DNA of 64,000 bases from Burkholderiales bacterium (GTDB taxonomy: Bacteria; Pseudomonadota; Gammaproteobacteria; Burkholderiales; Methylophilaceae): assembly GCA_030827595.1 (NCBI GenBank), contig JAURED010000001.1, positions 29,061 to 93,060 of the forward strand, in the 5' to 3' direction. The notes below the pieces were generated by a model. That model searched no databases, was not told the origin of the DNA, and saw only the letters and a list, made by a program, of their open reading frames with translations. Below are positions 2,772 to 12,684 of the stretch, one piece after another (the stretch's first letter is position 1; each line of letters opens with the position of its first letter). The translations under genes and the position numbers were made by a program.

Positions 2772-3210
2772 AGCAGACAAAAAATTAAGGAATCGTGCAC
2801 TCTATTATCTTGCCAAAAGAGAATATAGTTTCCATGAATTAGTAAATAAAACTCTTAACTATGCTGAAGAACTGGGTTTAAATAAAAAGGATTGTGAATT
2901 TATTATAAGTAAACTAAGAGAACAAAATCTGCAATCAGATCAGCGATTTTGTGAATCTTACATTAACTCGAAAAAAAATAAATTTGGTGCCCAAAAAATT
3001 GTTTTTGAATTAACGCAAAAAGGAGTGAGTGAGGATCTTGTAGCAACTTTTATAGGCGAATTAGTAAACAATGAATATGATTTAGCTTTACAAGTCTGGA
3101 ACAAAAAGTATTCTCATGTAACACAAGATATTAACGAAAAAGCAAAACAAATTCGATTTATGCAAAGTCGAGGGTTTAGTTTTGAAACTATAAAAAAAAT
3201 TATTAAATGA
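2752..3210 (+). CDS. recX: Regulatory protein RecX
   Basis: RecX binds RecA filaments and limits recombinase activity. The 152-residue protein is helical and basic, with the RecX-type start [18 protein letters not shown] and repeats of three-helix units ([35 protein letters not shown]). It overlaps recA by 20 bp and alaS by 4 bp (ATGA), so it is probably translated by coupling with recA. A slightly later start cannot be excluded because the first eight residues are not conserved. Confidence 0.93.
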
Positions 3211-5828
3211 AACAATTAACCAGCAACGAAATTAGACACATTTTTCTCGAGTTCTTTAAAGAAAAAAACCATACCATTGTATCCTCGAGTAGCTTGGTCC
3301 CTCATAATGACCCAACACTCCTGTTCACCAATGCCGGGATGAATCAATTTAAAGATTATTTTCTGGGCCAACAAAAACCAAAATTTTTAAGAGCCGCAAC
3401 AAGTCAAAAATGTGTACGTGCCGGAGGAAAACATAACGACCTTGAAAATGTTGGCTACACTGCGCGGCATCATACTTTTTTTGAGATGTTGGGTAACTTT
3501 AGTTTTGGTGATTATTTTAAAAAAGAAGCAATTGTTTTCGCCTGGGAACTTTTAACGGAGAAATTCCATATCCCAGCCAATAAGCTTCTAGTAACTGTAT
3601 ATCATGAAGACGAAGAAGCATTTGACATTTGGAAAAATACCATCAACCTTCCCCATGAAAAAATAATAAAAATTGGGGATAAATCTGACAAATATATTTC
3701 AGATAACTTCTGGATGATGGGGGATACAGGTCCATGTGGACCATGTAGTGAAATTTTCTTTGATCATGGCTCAGAGATTCCTGGAGGTCCCCCAGGGAGC
3801 GAAAATGAGGATGGTGATCGATTTATTGAGATCTGGAACTTGGTATTTATGCAATTTAACCGAAAAGAAGATGGGACAATGGAGCTGCTTCCAAAACCTT
3901 CTGTTGATACCGGAATGGGTCTCGAACGAATTTCTGCTGTGCTTCAATCCGTACATTCTAATTATGAGATTGATTTATTCCAAAGCCTTATTAAACATGC
4001 AGCAAAAACACTGGGCGTAAAAGATCATTTACTACCGTCATTAAAAGTCATCGCGGATCATGTTCGCTCGATTACATTTTTAATTAATGACGGAGTCCAG
4101 CCATCAAATGATGGTCGAGGTTATGTCCTCCGAAGAATAATGCGTCGAGCTATACGACACGGTTATAAGCTTGGAGCACAATCTCCTTTTCTAGCATCTA
4201 TAATTCATAGTGTCGCTGAGAATATGAATGAAGCTTATCCAGAATTAAGTATAAACATAAAAAAAATACAAGCGATCACGGCTCAGGAAGAAGATAAATT
4301 TTTTGAAACCATTGCCAATGGTATGGAATTAGTAGATCGTGAAATCATCAGATTAAAAACAGAAAAATTAACCCAATTTGATGGTGAAATAGCTTTTAAA
4401 TTACATGATACATATGGATTTCCAATTGATCTAACTGCAGATATTTGTCGAGAAAACGACATCACCATTGATCAAAAAGTATTTGATCAAGAAATGGAAA
4501 AACAAAAAAATCAAGCAAAAAGTGCAAATAACTTTAAAGCCTCTGTTCAAATAAAAATTGATAAAGAGCCAACCGTTTTTCATGGATATTCAGATATTAA
4601 GACAGAGTCATCTATAGAAGCCATCATTGTAGATGATAATTTGGTGAATGAAATTAGTGGTAACCAGTTATGTGGCATAGTTGTCAATAACACACCTTTC
4701 TATGCTGAATCTGGAGGTCAAGTTGGTGACGTTGGCGAAATTTTTAATGATCAAATGATATTTACAGTTTCCGATACCCAAAAACTCCCGAATGGAGTAG
4801 TTGTTCATATGGGTCAGATCACCCAAGGTCATATTCAGCTCTCTGACAAAGTGACCTGTGCGGTTAATGCAAAAAGGAGAGATTCTATAAAAAGAAATCA
4901 CTCCGCAACACACCTATTACATAAGGCCCTTAAGTCTGTTTTAGGTGATCATGTTGAACAAAAGGGATCTCTGGTAGATGAATTTAAAACAAGATTTGAT
5001 TTCTCTCACTCCGGTCAAATGACTTTTGAACAACTATGCAAAGTGGAATCTCTGGTTAATGAAGAAATACTTAAAAATAATTCTACACAAGCAGAAATTA
5101 TGCCAATTGAAGTTGCAAAAAAAAGCGGGGCAATGATGCTTTTTGGAGAAAAATATGATGATAATGTTCGCGTATTAACCATTGGTAACAGCAAAGAATT
5201 ATGTGGAGGAACGCATGTAACCGCTACAGGGGACATTGGACTTTTTAAAATAATTTCTGAAAATGGAATATCGTCTGGAGTCAGAAGAATTGAGGCTACG
5301 ACCGGGTTTAATATTTTAGAATTATTGAATAAACAAGATTCATTATTAAATCTATCAGCTAAGGAATTAAAAACATCTAAAGAAGAATTATCCATAAAAA
5401 TTAAACAAGTTGTTGATCAAATTAAAGACCAAGAAAAACAAATTAATCTCTTAAAACAGAAAATTACGAATAATTCAAAAAGTGACCTAATAAATCAAGT
5501 TGAAATAATTAAAGGAAATAAAGTTTTAATTGCTAGGCTTGACGCCATTGAAACTCCTCAACTGCGCACCTTGATTGACAATCTTAAAGAGGGGATTGGT
5601 TCTGGAATTATAATTTTAGCTTCAACTGTTGATGAAAAAATAAATATTGGTGTAGGTATTACAAAAGATATTACTAATCAGTATCATGCTGGTAAAATAG
5701 CAAGCCAAATTGCTGAAATGGTTGATGGAAAAGGTGGAGGAAAACCAGAAATGGCAATGGCAGGGGGGCATAACATTAAACAACTTCCCAAAGCACTAGA
5801 ACACATTAAAGAAATTTTAAATACATGA
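3207..5828 (+). CDS. alaS: Alanyl-tRNA synthetase
   Basis: AlaS charges tRNA-Ala and edits misacylated Ser or Gly. At 873 residues it is full length. Order of domains: class II catalytic core (FTNAGMNQFKDYFLG, then CVRAGGKHNDLENVG), tRNA-recognition helices, the editing domain with its zinc/deacylase motifs (HSATHLLHKAL and CGGTHV), a coiled-coil stretch rich in Lys/Glu, and the DHHA1-type C-terminal domain (DGKGGGKPEMAMAGG). The recA-recX-alaS order is widespread. The start codon overlaps the recX stop by 4 bp, and the stop overlaps the lysC start in the same way. Confidence 0.99.
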   Translation: MKQLTSNEIRHIFLEFFKEKNHTIVSSSSLVPHNDPTLLFTNAGMNQFKDYFLGQQKPKFLRAATSQKCVRAGGKHNDLENVGYTARHHTFFEMLGNFSFGDYFKKEAIVFAWELLTEKFHIPANKLLVTVYHEDEEAFDIWKNTINLPHEKIIKIGDKSDKYISDNFWMMGDTGPCGPCSEIFFDHGSEIPGGPPGSENEDGDRFIEIWNLVFMQFNRKEDGTMELLPKPSVDTGMGLERISAVLQSVHSNYEIDLFQSLIKHAAKTLGVKDHLLPSLKVIADHVRSITFLINDGVQPSNDGRGYVLRRIMRRAIRHGYKLGAQSPFLASIIHSVAENMNEAYPELSINIKKIQAITAQEEDKFFETIANGMELVDREIIRLKTEKLTQFDGEIAFKLHDTYGFPIDLTADICRENDITIDQKVFDQEMEKQKNQAKSANNFKASVQIKIDKEPTVFHGYSDIKTESSIEAIIVDDNLVNEISGNQLCGIVVNNTPFYAESGGQVGDVGEIFNDQMIFTVSDTQKLPNGVVVHMGQITQGHIQLSDKVTCAVNAKRRDSIKRNHSATHLLHKALKSVLGDHVEQKGSLVDEFKTRFDFSHSGQMTFEQLCKVESLVNEEILKNNSTQAEIMPIEVAKKSGAMMLFGEKYDDNVRVLTIGNSKELCGGTHVTATGDIGLFKIISENGISSGVRRIEATTGFNILELLNKQDSLLNLSAKELKTSKEELSIKIKQVVDQIKDQEKQINLLKQKITNNSKSDLINQVEIIKGNKVLIARLDAIETPQLRTLIDNLKEGIGSGIIILASTVDEKINIGVGITKDITNQYHAGKIASQIAEMVDGKGGGKPEMAMAGGHNIKQLPKALEHIKEILNT

Positions 5829-7089: not shown

Positions 7090-7183
7090 GGAGAGCTGGC
7101 CGAGTGGTCGAAGGCACTTCCCTGCTAAGGAAGCATACGGGTTTAAGCCTGTATCGAGGGTTCGAATCCCTCGCTCTCCGCCA
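7090..7183 (+). tRNA. tRNA-Ser (anticodon GCU)
   Basis: The cloverleaf is complete. Acceptor GGAGAGC pairs with GCTCTCC, followed by discriminator G and an encoded CCA. The anticodon stem CTTCC/GGAAG holds the loop CTGCTAA, giving anticodon GCT (AGC/AGU serine codons). The long variable arm expected for tRNA-Ser is present, and the T-loop is TTCGAAT. Confidence 0.97.
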
Positions 7184-7206
7184 TTTTTATATCAAGGGAG
7201 ACCCAG

Positions 7207-7716
7207 ATGCAACAGCCAATGTATGACTTATCCGTACCAATGATCATCAAAATGCTTGAAAATTTGATAAACATATTAAATAAAGCTCAGAGATTTGCTG
7301 ATAAAAAAAAATTTGACAGTGTTATTTTTGTTGAAAGCCGTCTGATTGCAGACATGTACCCCTTATCTCGTCAAATTCAGATTGGTACTGACATGGTCAG
7401 AAAAGGAATAGGAAGACTTGCCAATAAAAAATTTCCTAACTACCAAGATAATGAAAAAACAATAAAACAATTACAAAACCGCATTACGAAAACTATTAAT
7501 TTCTTAAAAAAAATTAAACCAAAAGACATGATAAATTCTGAAAATAAACCCATCGAATTTTCTATTCGTGAGCATAAATTTTCCTTTAGTAATGGCGAAG
7601 ATTATTTAAAAAGATGGATTCTTCCTCATTTCTTTTTTCATATGACCACCGCCTATAATATTCTTAGAATGAACGGGGTTAATCTTGGAAAATGGGATTA
7701 CACAGGAAAGTTTTAA
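7207..7716 (+). CDS. DUF1993 family protein
   Basis: The 169-residue protein matches the DUF1993 pattern: an N-terminal helix with MLENLINILNKAQRFA, a central conserved FVESRLIADMYPLSRQIQI, and a C-terminal helix with H and Y residues (LPHFFFHMTTAYNILRMNG). Proteins of this family resemble small helical DinB-like bundles, and their function is unknown. There is no signal peptide or membrane segment. A good Shine-Dalgarno (GGGAG) precedes the ATG. Its stop TAA overlaps the ATG of the next gene (TAATG), so the two are probably one operon. Confidence 0.85.
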   Translation: MQQPMYDLSVPMIIKMLENLINILNKAQRFADKKKFDSVIFVESRLIADMYPLSRQIQIGTDMVRKGIGRLANKKFPNYQDNEKTIKQLQNRITKTINFLKKIKPKDMINSENKPIEFSIREHKFSFSNGEDYLKRWILPHFFFHMTTAYNILRMNGVNLGKWDYTGKF

Positions 7717-8801
7717 TGTATTTAAAAGGATTAATATTATTTTTTAGTCTGTTGTTAATTAGCTGTAGTCAATTTGGGCCTGATTTTATGAAAGCAGGCA
7801 GAAATGAATATAACAAAGTATTGGCGCAGACAGATGACGAGGAAATTTTATTAAATTTAATCCGTCTTCGATATGCCGATAATCCCACTTTTTTAAAAGT
7901 CAGCAGCGTATCAACTGCATTTAACTGGAAAGAGGGTTTTGGAATTAATGGCTCGATTTTTGATGGGGCTACGACATCAAATAACGTCGGAGTTCGAGGT
8001 AATACAGAATACATCGAAAAACCAACCATCACTTATTCGCCATTGTCAGGAGCAGATTTCGTAAAAAATGTCTTAACCCCAGTCGACCACGAAGTAATTT
8101 TATTGCTAGCTCGATCTGGGTGGAGTATTGAACGTATCCTAAGATTAACGGTAAACCGCATTAATAATATCAATAATGCATCAGAAGCCTCTGGTCCAAC
8201 CCCATCTGAGGCCCCAGAATTTGATGAATTCATTCAATTATCAAAAGATTTTAGAGATTTGCAAAAGACATCTAAGATCACCCTTGGCTATCAACTTGAA
8301 GGTAACCCAGACGAATTGGCTTTATTAATTCAGAAAGACTATAGAAATGATCCAATGGTAAATCGCCTTTTAAATGATCTTAAAATTGAAACCAAAAACA
8401 ATATCATCCCAATTACTAAAAACTATTTTGATTCAACGCAAAATTCAAAAATACAACTTGAATCTCGCTCTCTAGCGGGTATACTTTTTTTCCTTTCCCA
8501 TGGAGTTGAGGTACCCACTGATGACATTGCAAATGGAAGAGTAACCGTTACCAAAAATAAAAATGGCGAAATCTTTGATTGGCAAAAAGTGCTTGATGGA
8601 TTATTTACAGTTTACACCTCAAAAAATCCTCCAGAACAGGCCACTATAGCTGTTGAATATCGAGGTAATTGGTTTTATATAAAAGACAATGATATGCAAA
8701 GCAAATATACCCTCATGTTACTCAATCAAATTTCTGCTCTCCAGTCAGGAAAAATAGAAAAATCTGGCCCTATTTTAACGCTTCCCGTATCGAGCAACTA
8801 G
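7716..8801 (+). CDS. Conserved lipoprotein of unknown function
   Basis: The start at 7716 is preferred over the track's 7692 because it gives a clean lipoprotein signal: Met-Tyr-Leu-Lys, a hydrophobic stretch, then the lipobox LLISC. It also couples to the upstream gene through TAATG. The mature protein of roughly 345 residues has a conserved N-terminal block (LLNLIRLRYADNPTFLKVSS), a beta-rich glycine and asparagine region, the block TITYSPLSGADFVKNVL, and an alpha-helical part beginning SGWSIERILRLTVNRIN. I recognise this pattern from unnamed proteobacterial envelope proteins but know of no assigned function. Export and lipidation are inferred from the signal. Confidence 0.8.
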   Translation: MYLKGLILFFSLLLISCSQFGPDFMKAGRNEYNKVLAQTDDEEILLNLIRLRYADNPTFLKVSSVSTAFNWKEGFGINGSIFDGATTSNNVGVRGNTEYIEKPTITYSPLSGADFVKNVLTPVDHEVILLLARSGWSIERILRLTVNRINNINNASEASGPTPSEAPEFDEFIQLSKDFRDLQKTSKITLGYQLEGNPDELALLIQKDYRNDPMVNRLLNDLKIETKNNIIPITKNYFDSTQNSKIQLESRSLAGILFFLSHGVEVPTDDIANGRVTVTKNKNGEIFDWQKVLDGLFTVYTSKNPPEQATIAVEYRGNWFYIKDNDMQSKYTLMLLNQISALQSGKIEKSGPILTLPVSSN

Positions 8802-8822
8802 TTAATCTATGTGTTTTAAGGA

Positions 8823-8828
8823 TATAAT
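8823..8828 (+). promoter_or_regulatory. -10 element of the tRNA-Arg pair
   Basis: A perfect TATAAT lies 9 bp before the first tRNA-Arg. It is followed by a G+C-rich discriminator (ACGGGTGACG), unlike the surrounding AT-rich DNA and typical of stable-RNA promoters under stringent control. No good -35 is visible at 16-18 bp. Confidence 0.5.
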
Positions 8829-8837
8829 ACGGGTGAC

Positions 8838-8914
8838 GCGCCCGTAGCTCAGCTGGATAGAGTACTTGGCTACGAACCAAGGGGTCAGGAGTTCGAATCT
8901 CTTCGGGCGCGCCA
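8838..8914 (+). tRNA. tRNA-Arg (anticodon ACG)
   Basis: A 77-nt cloverleaf with acceptor GCGCCCG/CGGGCGC, discriminator G and encoded CCA. The anticodon stem CTTGG/CCAAG encloses CTACGAA, so the anticodon is ACG. In bacteria A34 is normally deaminated to inosine by TadA to read CGU, CGC and CGA. Confidence 0.97.
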
Positions 8915-8927
8915 TTTAAATCTGTCT

Positions 8928-9004
8928 GCGCCCGTAGCTCAGCTGGATAGAGTACTTGGCTTCGAACCAAGTGGTCAGGAGTTCGAATCTCTTCGGGCGC
9001 GCCA
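8928..9004 (+). tRNA. tRNA-Arg (anticodon UCG)
   Basis: A tandem copy of the preceding tRNA after a 13-bp spacer. The two differ at only two of 77 positions: the first anticodon base (A to T, giving TCG) and the first variable-loop base (G to T). The cloverleaf is intact and CCA is encoded. It is expected to read CGA and CGG. The gene ends 4 bp from the 3' end of the opposing protease gene. Confidence 0.96.
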
Positions 9005-12608: not shown

Positions 12609-12684
12609 TGGTAGGGTGTGCGAGATTCGAACTCGCGACCAACGGATTAAAAGTCCGCTGCTCTACCAACTGAGCTAACACCCC
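12609..12684 (-). tRNA. tRNA-Lys (anticodon UUU)
   Basis: A 76-nt cloverleaf on the minus strand. Acceptor GGGGTGT pairs with ACACCCT (with a G1-U72 wobble pair), followed by discriminator A and encoded CCA. The anticodon loop CTTTTAA lies between CGGA-type stem strands, giving TTT. Confidence 0.96.

Follow-up and report, generated by a model that had tools for sequence, protein, structure and literature searches.

Two nearly identical tRNA-Arg genes that differ in the first base of the anticodon lie side by side in a genome of a marine OM43-type Methylophilaceae bacterium (an 821 kb assembly, 67% complete), raising the question of whether one arose from the other, when this happened, and which codons the second gene serves. 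We analysed a stretch of 64,000 nucleotides of this genome, hereafter the window, together with related genomes. ARAGORN places the two genes in tandem on the + strand at 8838-9004, ACG then TCG. The features of the locus are:

7090..7183, + strand, tRNA-Ser(gct), in the ancestral order the gene next upstream of tRNA-Arg(ACG) (ARAGORN)
8823..8828, + strand, TATAAT, likely the -10 box of the tandem transcript (read from the sequence)
8838..8914, + strand, tRNA-Arg(ACG), anticodon at 8872-8874, position 44 at 8882 (ARAGORN)
8915..8927, + strand, 13-base spacer between the ACG and TCG genes
8928..9004, + strand, tRNA-Arg(TCG), the copy with A34 changed to T34, anticodon at 8962-8964, position 44 at 8972 (ARAGORN)
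12609-12684, tRNA-Lys(ttt) (ARAGORN)

The two tRNA-Arg genes are identical at 75 of 77 bases. One difference, at index 35, is tRNA position 34 (A in the ACG gene, T in the TCG gene) and the other, at index 45, is position 44, the first base of the variable loop (G and T, respectively), exactly as described in the initial annotation of this DNA. This near-identity is beyond chance, because the TCG gene of the window matches tRNA-Arg(CCG) of Methylophilaceae at only 59/77 positions and tRNA-Arg(TCT) of the same genus at 53/77. The TCG gene folds into a canonical cloverleaf with a UCG anticodon and an encoded CCA (ARAGORN), and matches RF00005 above the cut-off. The identity elements of tRNA-Arg are A20, C35, G/U36 and A/G73 (PMC9976931), all of which are present in the TCG copy (as A20, C35, G36 and G73), in agreement with the earlier claim that A20 and C35 are unaffected.

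A promoter-like element was looked for in the 13-base spacer and none was seen; the ACG-TCG pair is probably co-transcribed. The TATAAT motif ends 8-11 bases 5' of the ACG gene in the window and in three further genomes (G095, G080 and G103). It was not flagged by a generic promoter scan, and scanning the surroundings of the pair for promoters and terminators added nothing.

Distribution and polarity of the tandem

The same tandem locus is present in the OM43 records KB13 and HTCC2181, in isolates LSUCC0401, LSUCC0665 and LSUCC0717, and in Ca. Methylopumilus, the freshwater sister group of OM43 (loci L155, L182 and L196). Within the genus of the window, 26 of 31 genomes have the ACG-TCG tandem and one has TCG alone, on a short contig. 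Neither TCG nor ACG was matched in the other four (G010, G021, G025 and G028), which points to assembly gaps since the ACG gene is also unmatched there. A search with a CCG pattern, allowing up to 2 mismatches, yielded no tRNA-Arg(CCG) in any of these 31 genomes; the same holds for the tRNA sets of two complete genomes described below (G008 and G095), as the initial annotation had supposed.

Pattern searches of the other 22 Methylophilaceae genera returned ACG and CCG among the matches listed and no TCG, with some genomes matching neither ACG nor CCG (for example, nine near-complete ones of genus g18). A tRNA-Arg(CCG) with a different body occurs in 20 of these 22 genera (the exceptions being g4 and g8). 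A grouping of the TCG gene with an unrelated TCG lineage, the outcome that had been named as speaking against a duplication, was looked for in the family and not seen. In an order-wide sample, TCG was matched in 17 of 399 genomes and 8 of 158 genera; two of these genera are those of the window and of Ca. Methylopumilus (g1 and g15, respectively), and the others differ in tRNA body and site.

The surroundings of the pair give the change a direction. At this locus, six other genera (g6, g8, g11, g14, g16 and g23) carry just one Arg gene, arranged as alaS-lysC-Ser(gct)-Arg(ACG). The tRNA-Ser(gct) behind lysC lies within about 0.3 kb upstream of Arg(ACG) in g8, g11, g14, g15, g16 and g23, and at a distance of 2.7 kb in g6. 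In Ca. Methylopumilus the tandem follows immediately after tRNA-Ser(gct) (Ser-ACG-TCG), and in OM43 genes are inserted between the two. The alaS-lysC-Ser-Arg locus is common but not universal, the ACG gene being sited elsewhere in 5 other fetched genomes (g3, g4, g7, g13 and one of g14). In a tree of alaS and lysC, the branch separating g1 and g15 from all others has a support of 100/100, a grouping that the long branches of OM43 and Methylopumilus could inflate and that agrees with the published history of the family (PMC6794327). On this tree, the TCG state is a single change.

Near-identical paralogues with different anticodons in one genome, and a single gene at the locus in relatives without TCG (the six genera above), are both features of scenario iii of Wald and Margalit, and they favour the duplication of the ACG gene with an A34-to-T34 change proposed in the initial annotation. 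No similarity is visible between the upstream flank, spacer and downstream flank of the two copies. Such similarity would be supporting, not required, as erosion with time is expected; because none remains, a duplication is suggested by the identity of the bodies, by their position side by side and by the single gene at the sister locus.

Two incomplete MAGs of the Methylopumilus group, G086 (L099) and G092 (L104), have ACG only at the locus, with no CCG or TCG match, and these states count against the preferred reading given below. In G086 the single ACG gene is flanked as ACG on its 5' side and as TCG on its 3' side, so that the two copies are fused exactly; recombination between them or their collapse in assembly would give this structure, and it looks like such a collapse of the tandem.

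Two further observations concern the neighbourhood. The interval 7184-8837 of the window is a variable spot: in OM43 genomes, 1.6 to 8 kb separate tRNA-Ser(gct) from the Arg pair, with changing gene content and orientation, whereas the two are close neighbours in most other genera. It is absent from the tRNA-bounded islands named in the accessible part of PMC10872708. The alaS gene (window 3207-5828) is unusually divergent, with 57% identity to same-genus G007 and 48% to G012 (partial), and is no closer to these than to other genera, perhaps through fast evolution or replacement; the adjoining lysC shows 70-73% identity in the same comparison.

Decoding of the CGN box

We assembled the tRNA sets of three single-contig genomes, one per kind: OM43 (G008, 35 distinct tRNAs), Methylopumilus (G095, 36 tRNAs) and an intermediate-sized relative (G103, 38 tRNAs; 1,754,988 bases, GC 0.445 in the stretches sampled). 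The Arg tRNAs are ACG, TCG, TCT and CCT in G008 and G095, and ACG, CCG, TCT and CCT in G103. Their number is four with CCG and four with TCG, indicating a swap; the picture of a genome shedding tRNA genes, which the initial annotation had applied to arginine, does not hold for these tRNAs, among which CCG went out and TCG came in.

The streamlined G008 and G095 are also without Gly(CCC) and Leu(CAG), and G008 is without Lys(CTT) as well. In the Gly, Leu and Lys boxes a U34 partner pre-existed, so the C34 tRNA could simply drop out. This route is blocked in the Arg CGN box because the partner there is not U34 but A34, and inosine derived from A34 cannot read CGG according to the decoding rules (PMC4041420, PMC3711424). 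By these rules, a U34 tRNA would have been needed before the loss of CCG, and the A34 partner would account for the CGN box being the only place in these tRNA sets where an anticodon change is seen.

Since tadA is found above the curated cut-off in 23 of 23 genomes tested, including that of the window, the ACG tRNA should still carry inosine. Thus, the earlier claim that the UCG tRNA reads CGA and CGG without inosine stands for the CGG need only; inosine was not given up, tadA and the ACG tRNA both being kept. Of 16 genomes, 15 carry mnmG, whose product belongs to the usual pathway of U34 modification, and only the 67%-complete G000 lacks it; action on tRNA-Arg(UCG) is a candidate role for this product.

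Codons were counted in open reading frames. CGA makes up 13% of CGN codons in G103 (129/1023), and a larger share in G095 (26%, 209/790), G008 (37%, 253/688) and the window (44%, 121/272). CGG stays at 5-8% of CGN throughout, with counts of 47, 36, 54 and 15, respectively, and is rare in the window (15 of 20263 codons). tRNA-Arg(TCG) is the only CGG-capable tRNA in the OM43 and Methylopumilus sets. Its UCG anticodon would add a Watson-Crick reader of CGA and keep CGG readable; we take CGG to be the need that it meets and CGA reading to be a bonus.

Concerted evolution of the two copies

In OM43, the T-arm state at positions 63/64 (CTCTT or CTTCT) is always the same in both copies of a genome. 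Similarly, both copies have A73 in G006 and C16T in G027 and G030. Rough counts of changes come from a tree of orf9008r, the gene next to the pair, which covers the genus only and in which forks are weak and some branches (G006, G024) long: 2 for the T-arm, the same for both copies, 3 for position 44, 2 for position 6 and 2 for position 73. As judged from these shared states, the tandem copies evolve in concert within a genome; homogenisation is likelier than independent parallel change, and shared selection on the T-arm is possible. Because the copies are homogenised, as derived changes found in both genes of one genome indicate, the identity of the pair, 75/77 in the window, is no guide to its age. 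Near-identical tandem tRNAs should not, on this evidence, be taken as recent.

Other changes are confined to one copy: G44T in TCG, and compensatory C6T/G67A in the TCG genes of G018, G023 and G006. G44T was not part of the founding event, being absent from Methylopumilus and from about half of OM43; pair identity is 76/77 in Methylopumilus and part of OM43. A requirement of U34 for U44 was considered and rejected as a rule, as Methylopumilus, half of OM43, Orbaceae and alphaproteobacteria have TCG without U44. At L143, L163, L164, L166, L167, L178 and L194, and also at L136-L138, TCG has U44 and its ACG partner G44 or C44, and the reverse (U44 in the ACG partner only) has no case among the pairs compared. 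Some of the U44-bearing TCG bodies of several lineages may share descent.

Origin of tRNA-Arg(UCG) and its counterparts elsewhere

Our preferred reading, to which we give a probability of about 0.9, is that tRNA-Arg(CCG) was replaced by a duplicated tRNA-Arg(ACG) carrying A34-to-T34. A tandem duplication of the ACG gene behind lysC and tRNA-Ser(gct) would have taken place in the ancestor shared by OM43 and Ca. Methylopumilus, with A34 changing to T34 in the downstream copy. The new tRNA-Arg(UCG), presumably charged by the same ArgRS, would read CGG through wobble and CGA through a Watson-Crick pair, and tRNA-Arg(CCG), now dispensable, would have disappeared as the genome was streamlined and drifted towards AT. 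The ACG copy, converted to ICG by TadA, would continue to read CGU, CGC and CGA. We infer this order of gain and loss. The replacement is finished, apparently of single origin, and older than the split of OM43 and Methylopumilus; of the two options of the initial annotation, a switch "in progress or completed", the second fits and the first does not.

The TCG gene could instead descend from an independent tRNA-Arg(TCG) that stood beside ACG in a beta/gamma ancestor, was mostly lost, and became ACG-like by gene conversion. Concerted evolution is real here, as shown by the T-arm 63/64 change and by A73, each shared by the two genes of a genome, and the order Ser(gct)-Arg(ACG)-Arg(TCG) recurs in Orbaceae, a RIFCSP gammaproteobacterium and Oleiphilus. 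Nonetheless, the sparse TCG matches in the order and the lack of TCG among the genomes listed for the other 22 family genera would demand very many losses, and in most tandems the TCG body lies close to that of the adjacent ACG gene and varies from lineage to lineage, making this origin improbable. Horizontal transfer of a TCG gene that then joined the local array has a precedent in another U34 Arg tRNA, that of Natranaerobius (PMC4041420), and is less probable still, given that TCG adjoins ACG within a syntenic locus and is one substitution away from it in Methylopumilus and part of OM43. That the TCG copy is a degenerate by-product decoding nothing important would suit the rarity of CGG, but it is hardly credible for the sole CGG-capable tRNA, kept across two genera and with compensatory changes in some genomes.

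The ACG-then-TCG pattern at tandem spacing was found at 74 loci in a public genome set. Besides OM43/Methylopumilus, these belong to Orbaceae (Gilliamella, Orbus, Frischella, Schmidhempelia, Zophobihabitans), Legionellales-like gammas, Oleiphilus, single-cell proteobacteria, Pseudorhodoplanes/Pseudolabrys-type alphas, MarineAlpha12 and a few others. CCG was unmatched in 17 of 20 representative tandem genomes, a count that includes two of OM43/Methylopumilus and is limited by incomplete assemblies and pattern misses, and is present alongside the tandem in G583, G588 and G590. Since pair identity falls from 76/77 (Methylophilaceae) and 71/77 (Orbaceae) down to 58/77 ungapped, some of these tandems are to be regarded as old or unrelated. 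Bee-gut Orbaceae (L146-L207) carry the array Ser(gct)-Arg(ACG)-Arg(ACG)-Arg(TCG), and the five genomes checked gave no match to CCG; this array is apparently a separate instance of the CCG/TCG swap. We tentatively suggest, at somewhat less than even odds, that streamlining leads to the swap in a predictable, convergent way, in which the CGN box blocks C34 loss until a spare ACG copy in the Ser(gct)-Arg(ACG) array has become TCG, with U44, which recurs in part of OM43 and several other TCG lineages, as a later refinement. The recurrence of the tandem makes this constraint of Arg decoding on streamlining testable by counting.

In the portions of the literature that were searched, among them two papers on the family, no report of a CCG-to-TCG replacement in Methylophilaceae was found. 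Wald and Margalit (2014) counted the A34C35G36/T34C35G36 tRNA-Arg switch twice, gave duplication plus mutation as one scenario for it, and found U34C35G36 in place of C34C35G36 in 24 genomes, associated with low GC (PMC4041420). The present case involves the same anticodons and the same amino acid, A34C35G36 to T34C35G36. It differs in that the event can be assigned to a single branch within one family, that the unduplicated locus, the tRNA sets on both sides and the concerted evolution of the copies are available, and that the gained tRNA replaces CCG and is not merely added. In Mollicutes too, tRNA-Arg(CCG) was lost and tRNA-Arg(UCG) gained, and an ACG duplication with A34-to-U34 has been put forward as a possible origin (Yokobori et al. 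2013, PMC3711424). There tadA was damaged or lost first, whereas here the loss of CCG is shared but tadA and the ACG tRNA are kept. In Pseudomonas fluorescens, a tandem tRNA duplication rescues the loss of a C34 tRNA gene, and a later switch is discussed (PMC7661048); the likeness lies in a tandem duplication covering for a C34 isoacceptor, and the difference in that it was a laboratory event with Ser tRNAs in which no switch was observed. The process is thus already known from other bacteria, and the case described here is ordinary in kind but unusually well resolved. It documents, together with its direction, the replacement of one tRNA by another in abundant free-living bacteria, and complete genomes, several of them of cultured strains, show the state before, the state after and the intact single-copy locus.
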